A stretch of 40,727 nt of DNA. Source: an uncultured Sutterella sp. Its GTDB lineage: Bacteria; Pseudomonadota; Gammaproteobacteria; Burkholderiales; Burkholderiaceae_F. The translations under genes and the position numbers were made by a program. The stretch covers positions 1 to 40,727 of the forward strand of contig CALXXT010000004.1 in the NCBI GenBank assembly GCA_944392755.1, written 5' to 3'. The notes under the pieces were generated by a model that saw only the letters and a list, made by a program, of their open reading frames with translations, ran no database searches and was not told the origin of the DNA. Below are positions 4,540 through 10,292 of this stretch, in pieces (within the stretch, counting starts at the first letter, position 1; the number at the start of each line of letters is the position of its first letter).

Positions 4540-6654
4540 ATGAGCGAAGTGGAACACCAGCCGCAGCCCGATCCCCAGCTCGCCCGGAGCTTGGTCGAAC
4601 CTTTGTACGCCGGTCTCAAGCTTCCGACCGGCGAGTCCGTGCTCGCGCACGCAGACGGCGCGGCGAGCATTGTTCGCGGCATTCGCAACGACCCGGATCT
4701 CGTTTCGGCCATGTATCTCTTTTATGTCGGCCAGACGGTTCAGAATCCGGACGAATGGATCGAAAAGAGCTTCGGTTCGGCCGTCTGCGGCCTGGTTGAG
4801 GAGCTCTCGAAGCTCAATGCGCTTTCCGTGCGCACCCGTTCGGGCGCGCAGGCCGATCCGTCCGTTCAGCCGGAGGCCGTTCGGCGCATGTTCCTCGCCA
4901 TGTGCCGAGATCTGCGCGTTGTGCTTCTCAAGCTTGCAAGCTGCCTGCAGACGCTGCGCTGGTTTGCCGCCACGAAGGCCGACGGCGCCGAAGCGGCGGG
5001 GGCAGAGACGCTTGCCGTCTATGCGCCTCTTGCCAACCGTCTCGGCATTTGGCAGATCAAGTGGGAGCTCGAGGATTTGGCTCTTCGCTTCACGCGTCCG
5101 GAGGAATATCACGAGATCGCCCGCGAGCTCGACGAGTCGCGCGAGGAGCGTCTGGAATTCATGCAGCATGCCGTGAAGCGGATCCGCGGACTCCTGGCGA
5201 AAAACGGGATTCGGGCGGACGTCTCCGGCCGCCCGAAGCACATCTATTCGATCTGGAAGAAGATGCAGCGCAAGCATCTGCGCTTCGACCAGCTCTTCGA
5301 CGTGCGGGCTCTGCGCATCATCGTCGAAACGGTCGAGCAGTGCTACGAGGTGCTCTCGATCGTGCAGGAGAACTTCACGACGCTCTCCAAGGAATACGAC
5401 GACTACATCGCCAAGCCGAAGCCGAACGGCTACCAGTCGCTTCATACGGTCGTTGAAGATTCTTCGGGACGGCCGATCGAAATTCAAATCCGCACGCGCG
5501 CCATGCACGAATTCGCGGAATTGGGCGTTGCCGCGCACTGGCGCTACAAGGAGGCGGGCAATTCGAACGGCATGTCGAGCGCCGAAGAGCAGCGCGTCGC
5601 CTGGCTGCGGCAGCTGCTCGCCTGGCGTTCCGACGTCGGTGCGCCGGAGGCGGGAGGCCATGAGGTCGAGGACGATCACGTCTACTGCCTCACGCCCGCG
5701 GGCCGGGTCGTGGAGCTCCCGGCCGGGGCAACGCCCGTCGACTTCGCCTATCAGGTTCATACTCAGCTCGGCCACCGCATGAAGGGCGCGCGCGTCGACG
5801 GCGCCATGGTCCCCCTCAATACGAAGCTGAAGACCGGGCAGACGGTCGAAATCATTGCCGGAAAAACCGGACAGCCGAGCCGCGATTGGCTCAATCCGGA
5901 GTTGGGCTATGCGGCGAGTCCGCGCACGCGCAACAAGGTGCGTCAGTGGTTCAACGCCCAGCAGACGGCCGAGCTTCTGAGCGCAGGGCGGGATCGTCTC
6001 GACAAGGAACTTGCGCGTCTGGGGAAGACGGCGATGAAGCTCGAAGACCTGGCCAAGCGCCTCGGCTTCGAGAAGGTCGACGACCTCTGCATAGCCTTCG
6101 CGAAGGAGGAGATCACGCAGACGGCGATCGCGCAGGCCGTTCAGCCGCAGAAGCCCGTGGCTGAAACCGAACCCGAGGTTCTCGTGAGGAATGAGTCGGC
6201 GGGGGCGAAGAAGAGCTCCGTTCTCGTCGTCGGCGTGGACTCGCTCCTCACGCAGCTTGCGCGCTGCTGTCATCCGGTGCCGCCCGACGACATCGTGGGA
6301 TACGTGACCCGCGGGCGCGGCGTCACGATTCATCGTGCCGACTGTCCGAACGTGAGGAACATGATCGAGCAGGATCACGAGCGTCTGATCGAGGTGAGCT
6401 GGGGTTCGGCGAGCGCCGAGGCGGTCTACCCTGCGGAAGTTCTCATCGTCGCTCAGGATCGGCTTGGCCTTCTGAAGGACATCTCGGAAATCTTCACCCG
6501 CGAGAAGGAGAAGATTACGGGCATGAGAAGTCAGATGGTGAAGGGCGATCAGCACATGCGCTTCAAGATCGAGATTCACTCGGCCGAAGGCCTGCGCCGC
6601 ACGCTCGCCGCTTTGCGGGAGTTGAAGGGCGTTCTCGCCGCGCGCCGCGTTTGA
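4540..6654 (+). CDS. relA: GTP pyrophosphokinase RelA, (p)ppGpp synthetase I
   Basis: Ribosome-associated stringent-response enzyme that transfers pyrophosphate from ATP to GTP/GDP when uncharged tRNA occupies the A site. The 704-residue layout is an N-terminal degenerate hydrolase domain, a synthetase domain (from about SGRPKHIYSIWKKM to GVAAHWRYKE), TGS (DDHVYCLTPAGRVVELP on), helical, zinc-finger-like (ARCCHPVPPDDIVGYVTRG with HRADCP) and C-terminal ACT domains. The hydrolase HD and ED motifs are not present: the usual HDxxED place reads LFYVGQTVQ. The synthetase loop reads EYDD, the EXDD signature of synthetase-only RelA rather than RXKD of bifunctional SpoT/Rel. This is therefore a monofunctional synthetase, and a SpoT must exist elsewhere. 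Start ATG 4540 with AGAGG just upstream. It is followed by a promoter for tRNA-Val, so it is probably a single-gene unit. Confidence 0.96.
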   Translation: MSEVEHQPQPDPQLARSLVEPLYAGLKLPTGESVLAHADGAASIVRGIRNDPDLVSAMYLFYVGQTVQNPDEWIEKSFGSAVCGLVEELSKLNALSVRTRSGAQADPSVQPEAVRRMFLAMCRDLRVVLLKLASCLQTLRWFAATKADGAEAAGAETLAVYAPLANRLGIWQIKWELEDLALRFTRPEEYHEIARELDESREERLEFMQHAVKRIRGLLAKNGIRADVSGRPKHIYSIWKKMQRKHLRFDQLFDVRALRIIVETVEQCYEVLSIVQENFTTLSKEYDDYIAKPKPNGYQSLHTVVEDSSGRPIEIQIRTRAMHEFAELGVAAHWRYKEAGNSNGMSSAEEQRVAWLRQLLAWRSDVGAPEAGGHEVEDDHVYCLTPAGRVVELPAGATPVDFAYQVHTQLGHRMKGARVDGAMVPLNTKLKTGQTVEIIAGKTGQPSRDWLNPELGYAASPRTRNKVRQWFNAQQTAELLSAGRDRLDKELARLGKTAMKLEDLAKRLGFEKVDDLCIAFAKEEITQTAIAQAVQPQKPVAETEPEVLVRNESAGAKKSSVLVVGVDSLLTQLARCCHPVPPDDIVGYVTRGRGVTIHRADCPNVRNMIEQDHERLIEVSWGSASAEAVYPAEVLIVAQDRLGLLKDISEIFTREKEKITGMRSQMVKGDQHMRFKIEIHSAEGLRRTLAALRELKGVLAARRV

Positions 6655-6688: not shown

Positions 6689-6716
6689 TTGCTTTTTTCT
6701 TCTCGGCATGTATAAT
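6689..6716 (+). promoter_or_regulatory. Sigma70-type promoter for tRNA-Val (and probably the thrS leader)
   Basis: -35 TTGCTT (6689-6694) and a perfect -10 TATAAT (6711-6716) are separated by 16 bases. Transcription would start about 20 bases before the tRNA. No other convincing promoter is seen between the tRNA 3' end (6818) and the thrS leader ORF (6842). Confidence 0.8.
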
Positions 6717-6741: not shown

Positions 6742-6818
6742 AGGCACATAGCTCAGTTGGTTAGAGCATCACCTTGACATGGTGGGGGTCGTTGGTTCGA
6801 GTCCAATTGTGCCTACCA
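6742..6818 (+). tRNA. tRNA-Val (GAC anticodon)
   Basis: 77-base cloverleaf. The acceptor AGGCACA pairs with TGTGCCT, the discriminator is A and CCA is encoded. The D-arm is GCTC...GAGC, and the anticodon arm TCACC-TTGACAT-GGTGG gives anticodon GAC. The T-arm is TTGG-TTCGAGT-CCAA. There is no intrinsic terminator directly after it; the next terminator is the thrS attenuator at 6932. Confidence 0.96.
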
Positions 6819-6841
6819 AAATTTTTTACGGATCAGTCGTC

Positions 6842-6892
6842 ATGTGCATTTATCGTTTCGGCGCGACAACAACACCCGTGAGCGTGAGCTGA
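6842..6892 (+). CDS. Putative thrS leader peptide with three consecutive Thr codons
   Basis: A 16-codon ORF, MCIYRFGATTTPVSVS, starts 23 bases after tRNA-Val and ends 39 bases before a strong intrinsic terminator ahead of thrS. Three ACA threonine codons in a row (6866-6874) in such a short frame are what a threonine-sensing attenuator needs. A weak ribosome binding site ACGGA (6828-6832) sits 9 bases before ATG. Pairing segment 1 (TTCGGCGCG, 6857-6865) lies directly before the Thr codons and would be covered by a ribosome stalled there. By analogy with PheL of E. coli pheST the peptide itself need have no function. Not detected by size-limited gene finding; support is architectural only. Confidence 0.72.
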   Translation: MCIYRFGATTTPVSVS

Positions 6893-6959
6893 TGGGCGTG
6901 CCGAAGCATGTAGACTGATATCTAAGCGAAGAAAGTGCGGCGCCGTCCGCACTTTTTTT
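6857..6959 (+). promoter_or_regulatory. Threonine attenuator: alternative RNA pairings before thrS
   Basis: Three mutually exclusive pairings can be drawn. 1:2 is TTCGGCGCG (6857-6865) with CGTGCCGAA (6897-6905), nine pairs with one G-U. 2:3 is GGCGTGCCG (6895-6903) with CGGCGCC (6938-6944), seven G-C pairs around a two-base bulge. 3:4 is AAAGTGCGG (6932-6940) with CCGCACTTT (6947-6955), the terminator. Stalling at Thr codons would mask segment 1 and free segment 2 to form the antiterminator. A ribosome at the stop codon (6890-6892) would cover segment 2 and let the terminator form. Folding energies were not computed. Confidence 0.68.
6932..6959 (+). terminator. Intrinsic terminator (attenuator) upstream of thrS
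   Basis: Perfect 9-bp stem AAAGTGCGG / CCGCACTTT around loop CGCCGT, followed by a run of seven T. It lies 40 bases upstream of the thrS start. It could simply end the tRNA-Val transcript, but the Thr-rich ORF and alternative pairings before it argue for regulated termination. Confidence 0.85.
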
Positions 6960-6964
6960 GTATC

Positions 6965-6981
6965 TGCACCCTGCCGGTGCA
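6965..6981 (+). other. Small hairpin before the thrS ribosome binding site
   Basis: TGCACC (6965-6970) and GGTGCA (6976-6981) pair around loop CTGCC between the attenuator terminator and the thrS Shine-Dalgarno region (AGAGGA near 6987). It might modulate translation initiation. E. coli thrS is known to be autoregulated through leader stem-loops, but no resemblance to that operator is claimed. Confidence 0.35.
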
Positions 6982-6999
6982 AAAGCAGAGGACTGGAAA

Positions 7000-8910
7000 A
7001 TGGTTGAAATCACCCTTCCCGACGGGTCCAAAAAATCCTTTGAAGCTCCCGTAACCGCAATGGGCGTCGCCGAGGCGATCGCTCCGTCGCTTGCCAAGGC
7101 CGCCGTCGCCGCCCGCGTGAACGGCCGCCTCGTGGATCTCTCGACCGTCATCGACAGCGCGGCCGACGTGGCGATCGTCACGGCCAAGGACCCCGAAGGG
7201 CTCGACATCATCCGTCACTCTACGGCCCACCTGATGGCTCAGGCCGTCAAGGAGCTCTATCCCGAAGCGCAGGTGACGATCGGGCCGTCGATTGAAAACG
7301 GCTTCTACTACGACTTTTCGTTCATGCGCTCCTTCACGCCCGAGGATCTGAAGGCGATCGAAGCGCGGATGGATGATCTTGTGAAGAAGAACATTCCGAT
7401 CGTGCGCGAAGAGATGACCCGCGAGGCCGCGATCGAACTCTTCAAGTCGATGGGCGAACACTACAAGGTCGAGCTCATTGAAGCGATCCCTGCGGGCGAA
7501 ACGATTTCGCTCTACCGCCAGGGCGACTTCGTCGACCTCTGCCGCGGTCCTCACGTTCCTTCGACCGGCAAGCTTAAGGTGCATCGCCTCATGAAGGTAG
7601 CGGGCGCCTACTGGCGCGGCGACAGCAAGAACGAAATGCTGCAGCGCATCTACGGCACGGCTTGGGCGACGAAGGACGAGCAGGCCGCTTACCTGAAGAT
7701 GCTCGAAGAAGCCGAAAAGCGCGATCATCGCCGCCTCGGCCGCGAGCTCGATCTTTTCCATCTGCAGGACGAAGCTCCGGGCATGATTTTCTGGCATGCG
7801 AAGGGCTGGGCCCTCTGGCAGGTAGTCGAACAGTACATGCGCCGCGTCTATCAGGACAACGGCTACGAAGAAGTGAAGGCGCCGCAGCTCCTCGACCGTT
7901 CGCTCTGGGAGCGTTCGGGCCATTGGGCGAAGTACCGCGAGAACATGTTCACGACCGAGTCGGAGAGCCGCTACTTCGCGCTGAAGCCCATGAACTGCCC
8001 GGGCCACATCCAGATCTTCAATTCGAAGCTGCGCTCCTACCGCGACCTGCCGCTTCGCATCGGCGAATTCGGCCAGTGCCACCGCAACGAACCCTCGGGT
8101 TCGCTCCACGGCCTGATGCGCGTGCGCGGCTTCACGCAGGACGACGGCCACATCTTCTGCACGGAAGATCAGATTCTTGAAGAGTGCGGCAAGTACACCG
8201 AACTCGTGCGCCGCGTCTACCGCGACTTCGGCTTCAAGGAAATCGCCTACAAGGTGGCGACTCGTCCTGAAATGCGCATCGGGGAAGACGCCGCTTGGGA
8301 CAAGGCCGAACACGCGCTCATGCAGAGCCTTGAGTCGCTTGGCATTCCCTACGAAGTGCTCGAAGGCGAAGGCGCCTTCTACGGCCCCAAGATCGAATAC
8401 CACCTGAAGGACTGCCTCGGACGTTCCTGGCAGTGCGGCACGATTCAGGTCGACTTCCAGATGCCGGGTCGTCTCGGCGCCGAATACGTCGCCGAAGACA
8501 ACACGCGCAAGGTGCCGGTGATGCTCCACCGAGCGATTCTCGGGTCGCTTGAGCGCTGGATCGGCATGCTGATCGAAGAGTTTGCAGGCGCCTTCCCCGT
8601 GTGGCTTGCGCCGGTTCAGGTCGGTCTCGCCGCGATCACGGACGCGCAGAACGACTACGTGAAGGAGCTTGCGCAGAAGTTCCACGAGGCGGGCATTCGG
8701 GTTCAAACCGATTTGCGAAGCGAAAAGATCAGCTATAAAATCCGCGAGCTTAGTCTGCAGAAGATTCCCTACATCGTCGTCGTCGGCGAAAAGGAAAAGC
8801 AGGCCGGCACGGTTTCCGTCCGCGCTCGCGGCGGCAAGGATCTCGGCGTCATGACCGTCGACGAATTCCTCGCCAAAGTGACCGGCGAAGCGGTCTCGCG
8901 CGCCATGTGA
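7000..8910 (+). CDS. thrS: Threonyl-tRNA synthetase
   Basis: Class II synthetase that charges tRNA-Thr; cytosolic, zinc-dependent, 636 residues (normal length). Domains in order: TGS (residues 1-60), editing domain with HSTAH and DLCRGPHVP motifs that removes mischarged serine, catalytic core with the zinc Cys in MNCPGH and motif-2-like CHRNEPSG, motif 3 [13 protein letters not shown], then the anticodon-binding domain ([19 protein letters not shown] to the end). ATG 7000 ([12 protein letters not shown]) is chosen over an upstream in-frame codon because it begins the TGS fold and has AGAGGA upstream. First gene of the thrS-infC-rpmI-rplT-pheST-ihfA block, preceded by a probable Thr-responsive attenuator. 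Confidence 0.97.
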
Positions 8911-8950: not shown

Positions 8951-9472
8951 ATAGCTCAAGATCGCAAGCATCGGATCAATGGTGAGATCCGAGTTCCTGA
9001 GGTCCGACTGACCGGCGTCGACGGCGCCCAGATCGGTATTGTTCGTACGTCCGAAGCCATGCGCATGGCCGAAGAAGCGGACGTCGACCTGGTGGAGGTG
9101 GCGCCGCACGCGACGCCGCCGGTCTGCCGGTTGATGGATTACGGCAAGTTCCGCTATCAGGAGCAGAAGAAGGCTCAGGAAGCCAAGGCCAAGCAGAAGG
9201 TGATTCAGGTGAAGGAGGTGAAGTTCCGTCCGGCGACGGATGAGAACGACTTCCAGACGAAGCTCCGCAGCTTGGTCCGCTTCCTCTCCGACGGCGACAA
9301 GGCCAAGGTGACGCTGCGCTTCCGCGGACGCGAAATGGCGCATCAGCACTTCGGCACCGAGCTGATGGAGCGCGTGCGAAACGAACTCGCCGACATCGCG
9401 CAGGTCGAGCACGCACCGAAGCTCGAGGGCCGTCAGATGGTGATGGTTCTCGCACCGAAAAAGAAGCGCTGA
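8951..9472 (+). CDS. infC: Translation initiation factor IF-3, AUA start codon
   Basis: IF-3 binds the 30S subunit, prevents premature 50S joining and proofreads the start codon. The reading frame is open upstream of the first in-frame ATG (9059, codon 37). That upstream part encodes the conserved N-terminal domain ([16 protein letters not shown] and [17 protein letters not shown]). The frame begins sensibly at ATA 8951 (ATA-GCT-CAA-GAT-CGC), with GGAG seven bases upstream. A non-AUG start is the hallmark of infC: AUU in enterics, and discrimination against it by IF-3 itself gives autoregulation. The protein is 173 residues with N-domain, lysine-rich linker ([13 protein letters not shown]) and C-domain ending in LAPKKKR. 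Forty bases separate it from thrS. Confidence 0.93.
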
Positions 9473-9549: not shown

Positions 9550-9633
9550 ATAACAAGTGGGCTTGAGGCTGGAAAGTCAGTTGCCGAATGGGCGTTGCGC
9601 CTGAAGTCCATACAAGAAAAGAGGAACGGCCAA

Positions 9634-9831
9634 ATGCCGAAGATGAAGACCAAGCGCGCCGCCGCCAAGCGGTTCAAGCCGCGCGCCAGCGGCTCGATCA
9701 AGCGCGCTCACGCTACGAAGCGCCACATCCTTACGAAGCGCACGACGAAGAACAAGCGTCAACTGCGCGGCATGGTCTCTGTGCATGAGTCGGACATGAA
9801 GTCCGTCAAGCGCATGCTCCCCTACGCCTGA
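9634..9831 (+). CDS. rpmI: 50S ribosomal protein L35
   Basis: Structural protein of the large subunit, 65 residues, extremely basic. It has the family N-terminus [20 protein letters not shown] and the following [16 protein letters not shown] segment, ending MLPYA. The ATG at 9634 is chosen over an in-frame ATG 39 bases upstream because MPKMKTKRA is the invariant family start and GAGGAA lies before it. Followed 15 bases later by rplT with its own ribosome binding site (AAGGAG). Confidence 0.97.
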
Positions 9832-9846
9832 TAAGGAGAATAGAAG

Positions 9847-10197
9847 ATGCCTCGTGTGAAGCGTGGTGTGACGGCTCGTGCCCGTCATAAGAAGATTTTC
9901 GCCCTCGCCAAGGGCTTCCGCGGCCGCCGCAACAACGTTTACCGCGTTGCCAAGCAGGCCGTCATGCGTGCCGGCCAGTATGCTTATCGCGACCGCCGCA
10001 ACAAGAAGCGCGTGTTCCGCCGTCTGTGGATCGCCCGCATCAACGCCGGTACGCGTGCCAACGGCATGACGTATTCGGTGTTCATGAACGGCCTCAAGAA
10101 GGCCGGCATCGGTCTTGACCGCAAGGTGCTCGCCGACATGGCCGTGAACGACAAGGCCGGCTTTGCCGCTCTCGTCGCTCAGGTGAAGGGCTGCTGA
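9847..10197 (+). CDS. rplT: 50S ribosomal protein L20
   Basis: Large-subunit assembly protein, 116 residues. It has the typical basic N-terminal arm ([30 protein letters not shown]) and globular domain with [13 protein letters not shown]. In some bacteria L20 also represses its own operon by binding leader RNA, which fits the hairpin before rpmI. An intrinsic terminator lies 64 bases downstream, so pheST may depend on readthrough or its own promoter. Confidence 0.97.
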
Positions 10198-10240: not shown

Positions 10241-10261
10241 GGCCCTAGGCTCAACGACATG

Positions 10262-10292
10262 AAGGATTCGGTTTCGGCCGAATCCTTTTTTT
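10262..10292 (+). terminator. Intrinsic terminator between rplT and pheS
   Basis: Perfect 10-bp stem AAGGATTCGG / CCGAATCCTT around TTTCGG, followed by uninterrupted T residues to 10292. A frame starting at 10259 reads through it but its Phe codons are only the T-run itself, so it is not taken as a Phe leader peptide. Confidence 0.85.

Follow-up and report, generated by a model that had tools for sequence, protein, structure and literature searches.

The threonyl-tRNA synthetase gene (thrS) of the uncultured Sutterella sp. studied here is very probably controlled by ribosome-mediated, threonine-responsive transcription attenuation, where the translation of the leader, the stalling of the ribosome and the direction of the response are inferred from sequence. 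In the stretch of DNA that we analysed (40,727 nucleotides; the window), the putative attenuator lies between tRNA-Val and thrS, and it would sense charged tRNA-Thr and set the transcription of thrS, with infC, rpmI and rplT probably included.

Anatomy of the thrS leader

The leader ORF, read directly from the window sequence, spans 16 codons (6842-6892) between tRNA-Val(GAC) and thrS. It encodes MCIYRFGATTTPVSVS*, with three consecutive Thr codons (ACA ACA ACA) at 6866-6874, a Shine-Dalgarno sequence that by eye is weak (GGA), and a stop codon at 6890-6892. Three pairings can form around and behind these codons. In the first, 1:2, the inner part joins TTCGGCGCG (6857-6865) to CGTGCCGAA (6897-6905); in the second, 2:3, GGCGTGCCG (6895-6903) pairs with CGGCGCC (6938-6944) through seven pairs and a 2-nt bulge; and in the terminator pairing, 3:4, AAAGTGCGG (6932-6940) pairs with CCGCACTTT (6947-6955), followed by a T-run to 6959. 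In the window, 1:2, 2:3 and 3:4 are mutually exclusive. On re-reading, the 16-codon ORF, the three ACA codons, the terminator and all coordinates of the original prediction were exact. The positions of its three exclusive pairings also stood, while stem 1:2 had been drawn too short: the fold adds outer arms (6832-6838 with 6913-6919, and 6841-6845 with 6906-6910, that is, 6832-6845 with 6906-6919), and the full-length stem encloses the ORF together with its start codon.

The region 6842-6962 (121 nt) has a folding energy of -53.2 kcal/mol (z -4.9), and none of 200 shuffles was equally low. The automatic terminator scan made no call at 6932-6959, probably because the T-run lies partly within the stem. 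A small hairpin, TGCACC-CTGCC-GGTGCA (6965-6981), stands immediately 5' of the thrS ribosome site. Transcription of the window leader probably starts at a TTGCTT-16-TATAAT site 5' of tRNA-Val. A RelA/SpoT-family gene (4540-6654) lies directly 5' of tRNA-Val and thrS, which places a stringent-response gene beside a likely sensor of amino-acid starvation. The window has one tRNA-Val(GAC) gene before thrS, and ten congeners have two or three in tandem. The features are as follows.

6689-6716, forward strand: promoter-like TTGCTT-16-TATAAT 5' of tRNA-Val (by eye; no call by the automatic scan)
6742-6818, forward strand: tRNA-Val (GAC), likely the first gene of the transcript (ARAGORN; Rfam RF00005)
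6832-6845, forward strand: outer 5' arm of stem 1:2 (fold; stem 1:2 covaries in the window's own genus)
6842-6892, forward strand: leader ORF, MCIYRFGATTTPVSVS* (sequence; Thr ORF in relatives)
6857-6865, forward strand: segment 1, inner part (fold; cis-specific 1:2 complementarity)
6866-6874, forward strand: putative regulatory codons ACA ACA ACA (Thr kept at the first position in 50/50 and at the second in 47/50 family leaders)
6895-6905, forward strand: segment 2, partner of segment 1 or of segment 3 (window pairing; cis-versus-permuted tests)
6932-6959, forward strand: predicted intrinsic terminator 3:4, with a 9-bp core stem, A/T extension and T-run (fold; terminator score)
6938-6944, forward strand: predicted antiterminator part of segment 3 (window pairing; alignment and cis-versus-permuted tests)
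7000-8910, forward strand: thrS, the putatively regulated gene (NCBIfam TIGR00418)
8981-9472, forward strand: infC, start uncertain (TIGR00168)
9631-9831, forward strand: rpmI (TIGR00001)
9847-10197, forward strand: rplT (TIGR01032)
10261-10288, forward strand: terminator-like T-tailed hairpin separating rplT from pheS, where the thrS unit probably ends (counterparts in congeners by eye)

The match to TIGR00418 confirms that the leader sits directly before a threonyl-tRNA synthetase gene, as had been predicted. In the mechanism that we propose, RNA polymerase arriving from tRNA-Val would transcribe the leader ORF. With tRNA-Thr charged, the ribosome would pass the three ACA codons, reach the stop codon and cover segment 2, allowing the 3:4 terminator to form. 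Under a shortage of threonine or of ThrRS activity, the ribosome would stall on the Thr codons and hold segment 1, leaving 2:3 to pair; the terminator would then be blocked and thrS transcribed. Without translation of the leader, 1:2 would form and transcription would end.

The Thr codons and the terminator are kept together in the family

Searching the 67 genomes of the window's family, we found thrS in 62 and scripted the analysis of all 62 upstream regions, of which three (L037, L054 and L023) were short. The rule accepted a terminator up to about 200 nt from thrS and an ORF of at most 25 codons with adjacent Thr codons that ended 12-80 nt before the terminator. The automatic score found a terminator in 50 of the 62 loci and, among these, a short adjacent-Thr ORF in 47, whereas 50 dinucleotide shuffles gave 2.2 on average and never more than 6 (a count made on the forward strand only). 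The remaining three (L016, L018 and L048) carry RTPFT or RTRFT (RTxFT). A terminator kept alone, the pattern that the original prediction had named as refuting, was therefore unseen in the family, as all 50 terminator-bearing loci have a Thr ORF (47 adjacent, three RTxFT). Each of the 12 genomes from the window's genus found in this search has both leader and terminator. Of the 12 family loci lacking a terminator, 10 also lack an adjacent-Thr ORF, and two (L061 and L063) have a stray one. When the terminator condition was dropped, an ORF with two adjacent Thr (TT) was found at 46/62 loci on the forward strand and 20/62 on the opposite strand (forward shuffle mean 7.45), and an RTT ORF at 40 versus 2. 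Taken with these relatives, the leader is far beyond chance; the window alone is not proof.

In the family leaders the residue Thr is kept while the codon changes. The first Thr position is ACT in 29, ACA in 13 and ACG in 8, hence Thr in 50/50; the second is ACA in 29, ACG in 15, ACC in 3 and not Thr in 3. Thr makes up 30% of the residues after the start codon.

The hairpin could instead be the plain terminator of tRNA-Val, with a Thr ORF next to it by chance. The tRNA ends only 181 nt 5' of thrS in the window, terminators after tRNA genes are ordinary, and loci belonging to other orders in the class commonly have tRNA-Val before thrS as well. However, nine loci of one related genus (e.g. L005) have the leader and the terminator with no tRNA in the 700 nt upstream, so that the terminator is not merely that of tRNA-Val, and other orders, sampled as the 29 best-matching loci out of 104 matching genomes, yielded seven terminators and no Thr ORF. 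We reject a chance ORF beside a tRNA terminator on the 47/50 count versus shuffles together with the nine tRNA-less loci, and we consider a plain tRNA-Val terminator extremely improbable.

Another reading is that the leader ORF works chiefly at the level of translation, for example by reinitiation or by opening the thrS ribosome site, with termination playing a minor part. The small hairpin in front of that site would fit such a role, but the leader stop codon lies 107 nt from thrS in the window and as far as 245 nt away in other loci, too far for simple coupling, and leader and terminator occur together in 50/50 terminator-bearing family loci. Control mainly through translation is, in our judgement, very improbable, and attenuation of transcription is the reading that we follow below.

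The alternative pairings are specific to their own leader

As the antiterminator is nearly invariant within the window's genus and an alignment is therefore hardly informative (46 of 500 shuffles reach its score), we turned to cis-versus-permuted tests, in which the duplex energies of segment pairs within a leader are compared with those of permuted partners across 60 non-redundant leaders. Five of 104 loci (L122, L130, L132, L152 and L182), in which the ORF and the terminator had no credible relation, are omitted from the segment-pairing, duplex, mask and codon analyses, and seven further loci had failed the terminator score before the pairing analyses. L152 is counted as having a Thr ORF under the terminator-linked rule, where nothing was removed by hand.

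Pairing 2:3 averaged -14.38 kcal/mol in cis versus -12.45 permuted, and 1:2 averaged -19.78 versus -16.41, neither being equalled in 10,000 permutations; the control pairing 1:3 gave -9.94 in both cases (4986/10,000), a null result. Permuting within three clades and pooling gave 0/5000 for both 1:2 and 2:3. Within single groups, 1:2 was not significant in the MTPRT clade alone (278/3000), nor was 2:3 in the family at a stricter redundancy cut, with 10 leaders (393/3000). Leader by leader, 2:3 reached p ≤ 0.05 in 17 of 66, and in the window itself it is unexceptional, since 48% of shuffled segments equal or surpass it (p 0.48).

Stem 1:2 could be followed by covariation in the window's own genus. 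Across 10 sequences, 87.6% of the cells are paired and the covariation score is 0.301 versus 0.179 in shuffles (0/500 as high), with slid versions reaching at most 0.107. The consensus fold of a second alignment (A2) showed no long common stem 1:2. By the cis-versus-permuted tests, the leaders have a predicted antiterminator, 2:3, that is incompatible with 1:2 and with 3:4, an arrangement characteristic of attenuators. Kept together in relatives, the Thr run, the alternative stems and the terminator favour the threonine-responsive attenuator originally predicted for thrS.

Ribosome position and codon choice

The stalling geometry that had been proposed held up in a simple model, in which the ribosome masks 15 nt from its A-site codon, an assumption. 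With the modelled ribosome at the Thr codons, segment 2 stays accessible; with it at the stop codon, segment 2 is covered. Across 99 leaders, this shift to the stop codon lowered the upstream pairing of segment 3 by a mean of 3.54 bases, versus 0.70 with shuffled segment 2, and the drop exceeded the shuffled control in 88 of the 99. Segment 2 would thus be masked from the stop codon but not from the cognate codons.

The ACA run is made of a codon that is absent from eight genes of the window, the RelA/SpoT-family gene and the seven from thrS to ihfA, whose 139 Thr codons comprise 102 ACG, 30 ACC, 7 ACT and no ACA. More generally, ACA and ACT account for 106 of 178 Thr codons in family leaders versus 45 of 344 in thrS starts (first 120 codons). 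For E. coli leaders, a part of PMC1183508 cautions that the choice of codons cannot be put down to their rarity alone, the thr leader using ACC.

A constant start in the leaders of other Burkholderiales

In the Burkholderiales leaders that begin with MTPxT (within L069-L245, e.g. L143), the sequence GTTATGACACCG is nearly invariant in its nucleotides, even where Thr codons no longer come after it. Among 46 distinct leaders of this type, codon 2 is ACA and codon 3 is CCG in 46/46, codon 5 is ACT in 44/46, and GTT precedes all; codon 6 is Thr in 29 and not Thr in 17. This constancy stands against the codon usage at the start of the thrS genes that these leaders precede, where ACA is 21 of 324 Thr codons. 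Part of the 46 leaders was found by the motif search itself; the 25 loci of the set obtained from thrS searches alone have ACA CCG without exception. Three loci (L102, L106 and L107, starting MSA, MSP and MTA) fall outside the pattern. At up to two mismatches, the motif occurs in 24 of 150 genomes of the order, with exact copies at most once per genome, and is absent from the window's genome. As an explanation of the constancy, a hairpin holding the start codon was rejected by eye, being inconsistent across variants. The constancy of GTTATGACACCG is a nucleotide-level constraint beyond what the classic model requires.

These leaders offer the best case for a trans-acting factor (ThrRS, another protein or uncharged tRNA) that binds the leader RNA and controls termination, with the ORF secondary or co-opted. 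In some of them (RTWSF, RTCFF and RTFGS) the nucleotides are kept and the Thr run is lost, and E. coli ThrRS is known to bind its own mRNA. Against such a factor, the leaders of the window's family keep Thr residues while their codons vary, the window's genome lacks the motif, and no T-box or other leader is recognised by Rfam: at the gathering score, Rfam 15 returned no family but tRNA in the window and 16 relatives, leading us to discard a T-box or other known RNA family. We therefore regard control by a trans-acting factor in place of the ribosome as quite improbable. A combination of the two is somewhat easier to entertain, though still rather unlikely. Here, the start of the Burkholderiales thrS leader (GTTATGACACCGCGAACT) would be a second, nucleotide-level signal, and the attenuator would read tRNA-Thr charging through the ribosome and, through the constant segment, a bound factor (ThrRS, another protein, or the initiation state), the lineage of the window having the codon sensor without the constant segment.

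Distribution beyond the family

Attenuator-like leaders extend beyond the family in a looser form. In a sample of 40 loci from other families of the order, out of 384 genomes with a match, 27 had a terminator, 10 of them together with a TT ORF (shuffle mean 0.7) and 18 with an ORF containing RT (mean 1.6). A set of named organisms (the best 80 of 581 loci) gave 52 terminators, 29 TT ORFs (mean 1.8) and 32 RT ORFs (mean 3.0); three of the 29 TT loci (L167, L180 and L181) belong to Gammaproteobacteria outside Burkholderiales. Loci picked by motif or by hand (L185-L199 and L229-L246) enter no frequency count except that of codons in the 46 MTPxT leaders. Examples of leaders are MTPRTTTLEGFKRR in Massilia, MTPRTTTAEQRQ in Cupriavidus, MIQAPRTTTASERQ in Ralstonia, MTPRTTTTPTKV in Roseateles, MTPRTTSEMLTGR in Acidovorax, MIFRTTTEAGN in Azoarcus and MFKRTTTTRISR in Vogesella.

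Upstream of thrS in Xanthomonadaceae (L247-L276), we observed an ORF of 6-8 codons, M[SDRK]TT.., in 26 of the 30 loci examined, out of 37 genomes with a match. Examples are MSTTTAHR and MDTTTAQR, a near-invariant GCGTGCGACATG stands in front, and in many loci a T-tailed hairpin is visible by eye 3' of the Thr ORF. Xanthomonadaceae thrS thus apparently has a second, separate Thr leader.

Probable extent of the regulated unit

In the window, the genes follow in the order thrS, infC, rpmI, rplT, pheS, pheT and ihfA, although ihfA scores under the curated cut-off. In the window's genus, control most likely covers thrS-infC-rpmI-rplT, because a T-tailed hairpin follows rplT and is also found in congeners. 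Ten relatives of the same genus were fetched for this comparison; two (L279 and L284) gave no pheS match, and in all eight with both genes located a counterpart of the hairpin was seen by eye. Among eight relatives from other genera, one (L287) was without a pheS match and two (L291 and L293) were without a T-run between rplT and pheS. By eye, no Phe-rich leader was evident between these two genes in the window. The original prediction had tied the whole translation operon to threonine supply. This is plausible for thrS, infC, rpmI and rplT, and unsupported for PheST and IHF, to which control is unlikely to reach past the hairpin after rplT.

Comparison with known systems

The thrL (thrABC) and pheM (pheST) attenuators of E. 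coli consist of a short ORF rich in cognate codons, alternative stems and an intrinsic terminator, and the thrS leader likewise has, in its predicted structure, these anatomical features of the leader-peptide attenuators of amino-acid operons and pheST. Parts of the literature name thrL and pheM as leader peptides (PMC7815308) and describe the E. coli thr leader as having eight ACC codons, ACC being a major codon (PMC1183508). The present leader differs from the latter in its gene, thrS instead of thrABC, and in using ACA, absent from the 139 Thr codons counted here, instead of ACC.

For thrS itself, control is to our knowledge known in detail only in E. coli, as translational autorepression, and in Firmicutes, as a T-box. 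In E. coli, ThrRS binds hairpins resembling an anticodon arm at the ribosome site and blocks the translation of its own mRNA, an autogenous control that concerns the same gene and has the same purpose, to raise ThrRS when there is too little of it. In contrast to this translation block, the leader described here is proposed to gate a premature stop of transcription by means of a leader peptide. The T-box of Firmicutes thrS senses tRNA-Thr charging through a terminator, as we propose for the present leader, whereas the T-box model has no match in the window and 16 relatives.

Further parallels are synthetase genes behind leaders rich in cognate codons, as here, although for other amino acids and in other lineages. 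Vecchione and Sello (2010) reportedly described leader-peptide attenuation of trpS. A study by Lopatovskaya, Seliverstov and Lyubetsky (2010; Mol Biol 44:128, cited in PMC4833913) deals, by its title, with attenuation of aminoacyl-tRNA operons; it is a likely precedent and may already predict a thrS leader. Leader-peptide attenuation has also been predicted for hisS of bacilli in a part of PMC2965389 in which the term threonyl-tRNA occurs once, for E. coli. Among the open PMC literature matches listed, no paper dealt with a leader peptide or an attenuator of thrS in Proteobacteria.

If our reading is correct, it would allow gene expression to be predicted for many environmental and gut bacteria when Thr is limiting, and would add an RNA family that is missing from Rfam 15. 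Moreover, a leader-peptide attenuator conserved across many Burkholderiales, together with what appears to be a separate one in Xanthomonadaceae, would represent further solutions to the control of thrS, beside the translational autorepression of E. coli and the T-box of Firmicutes.
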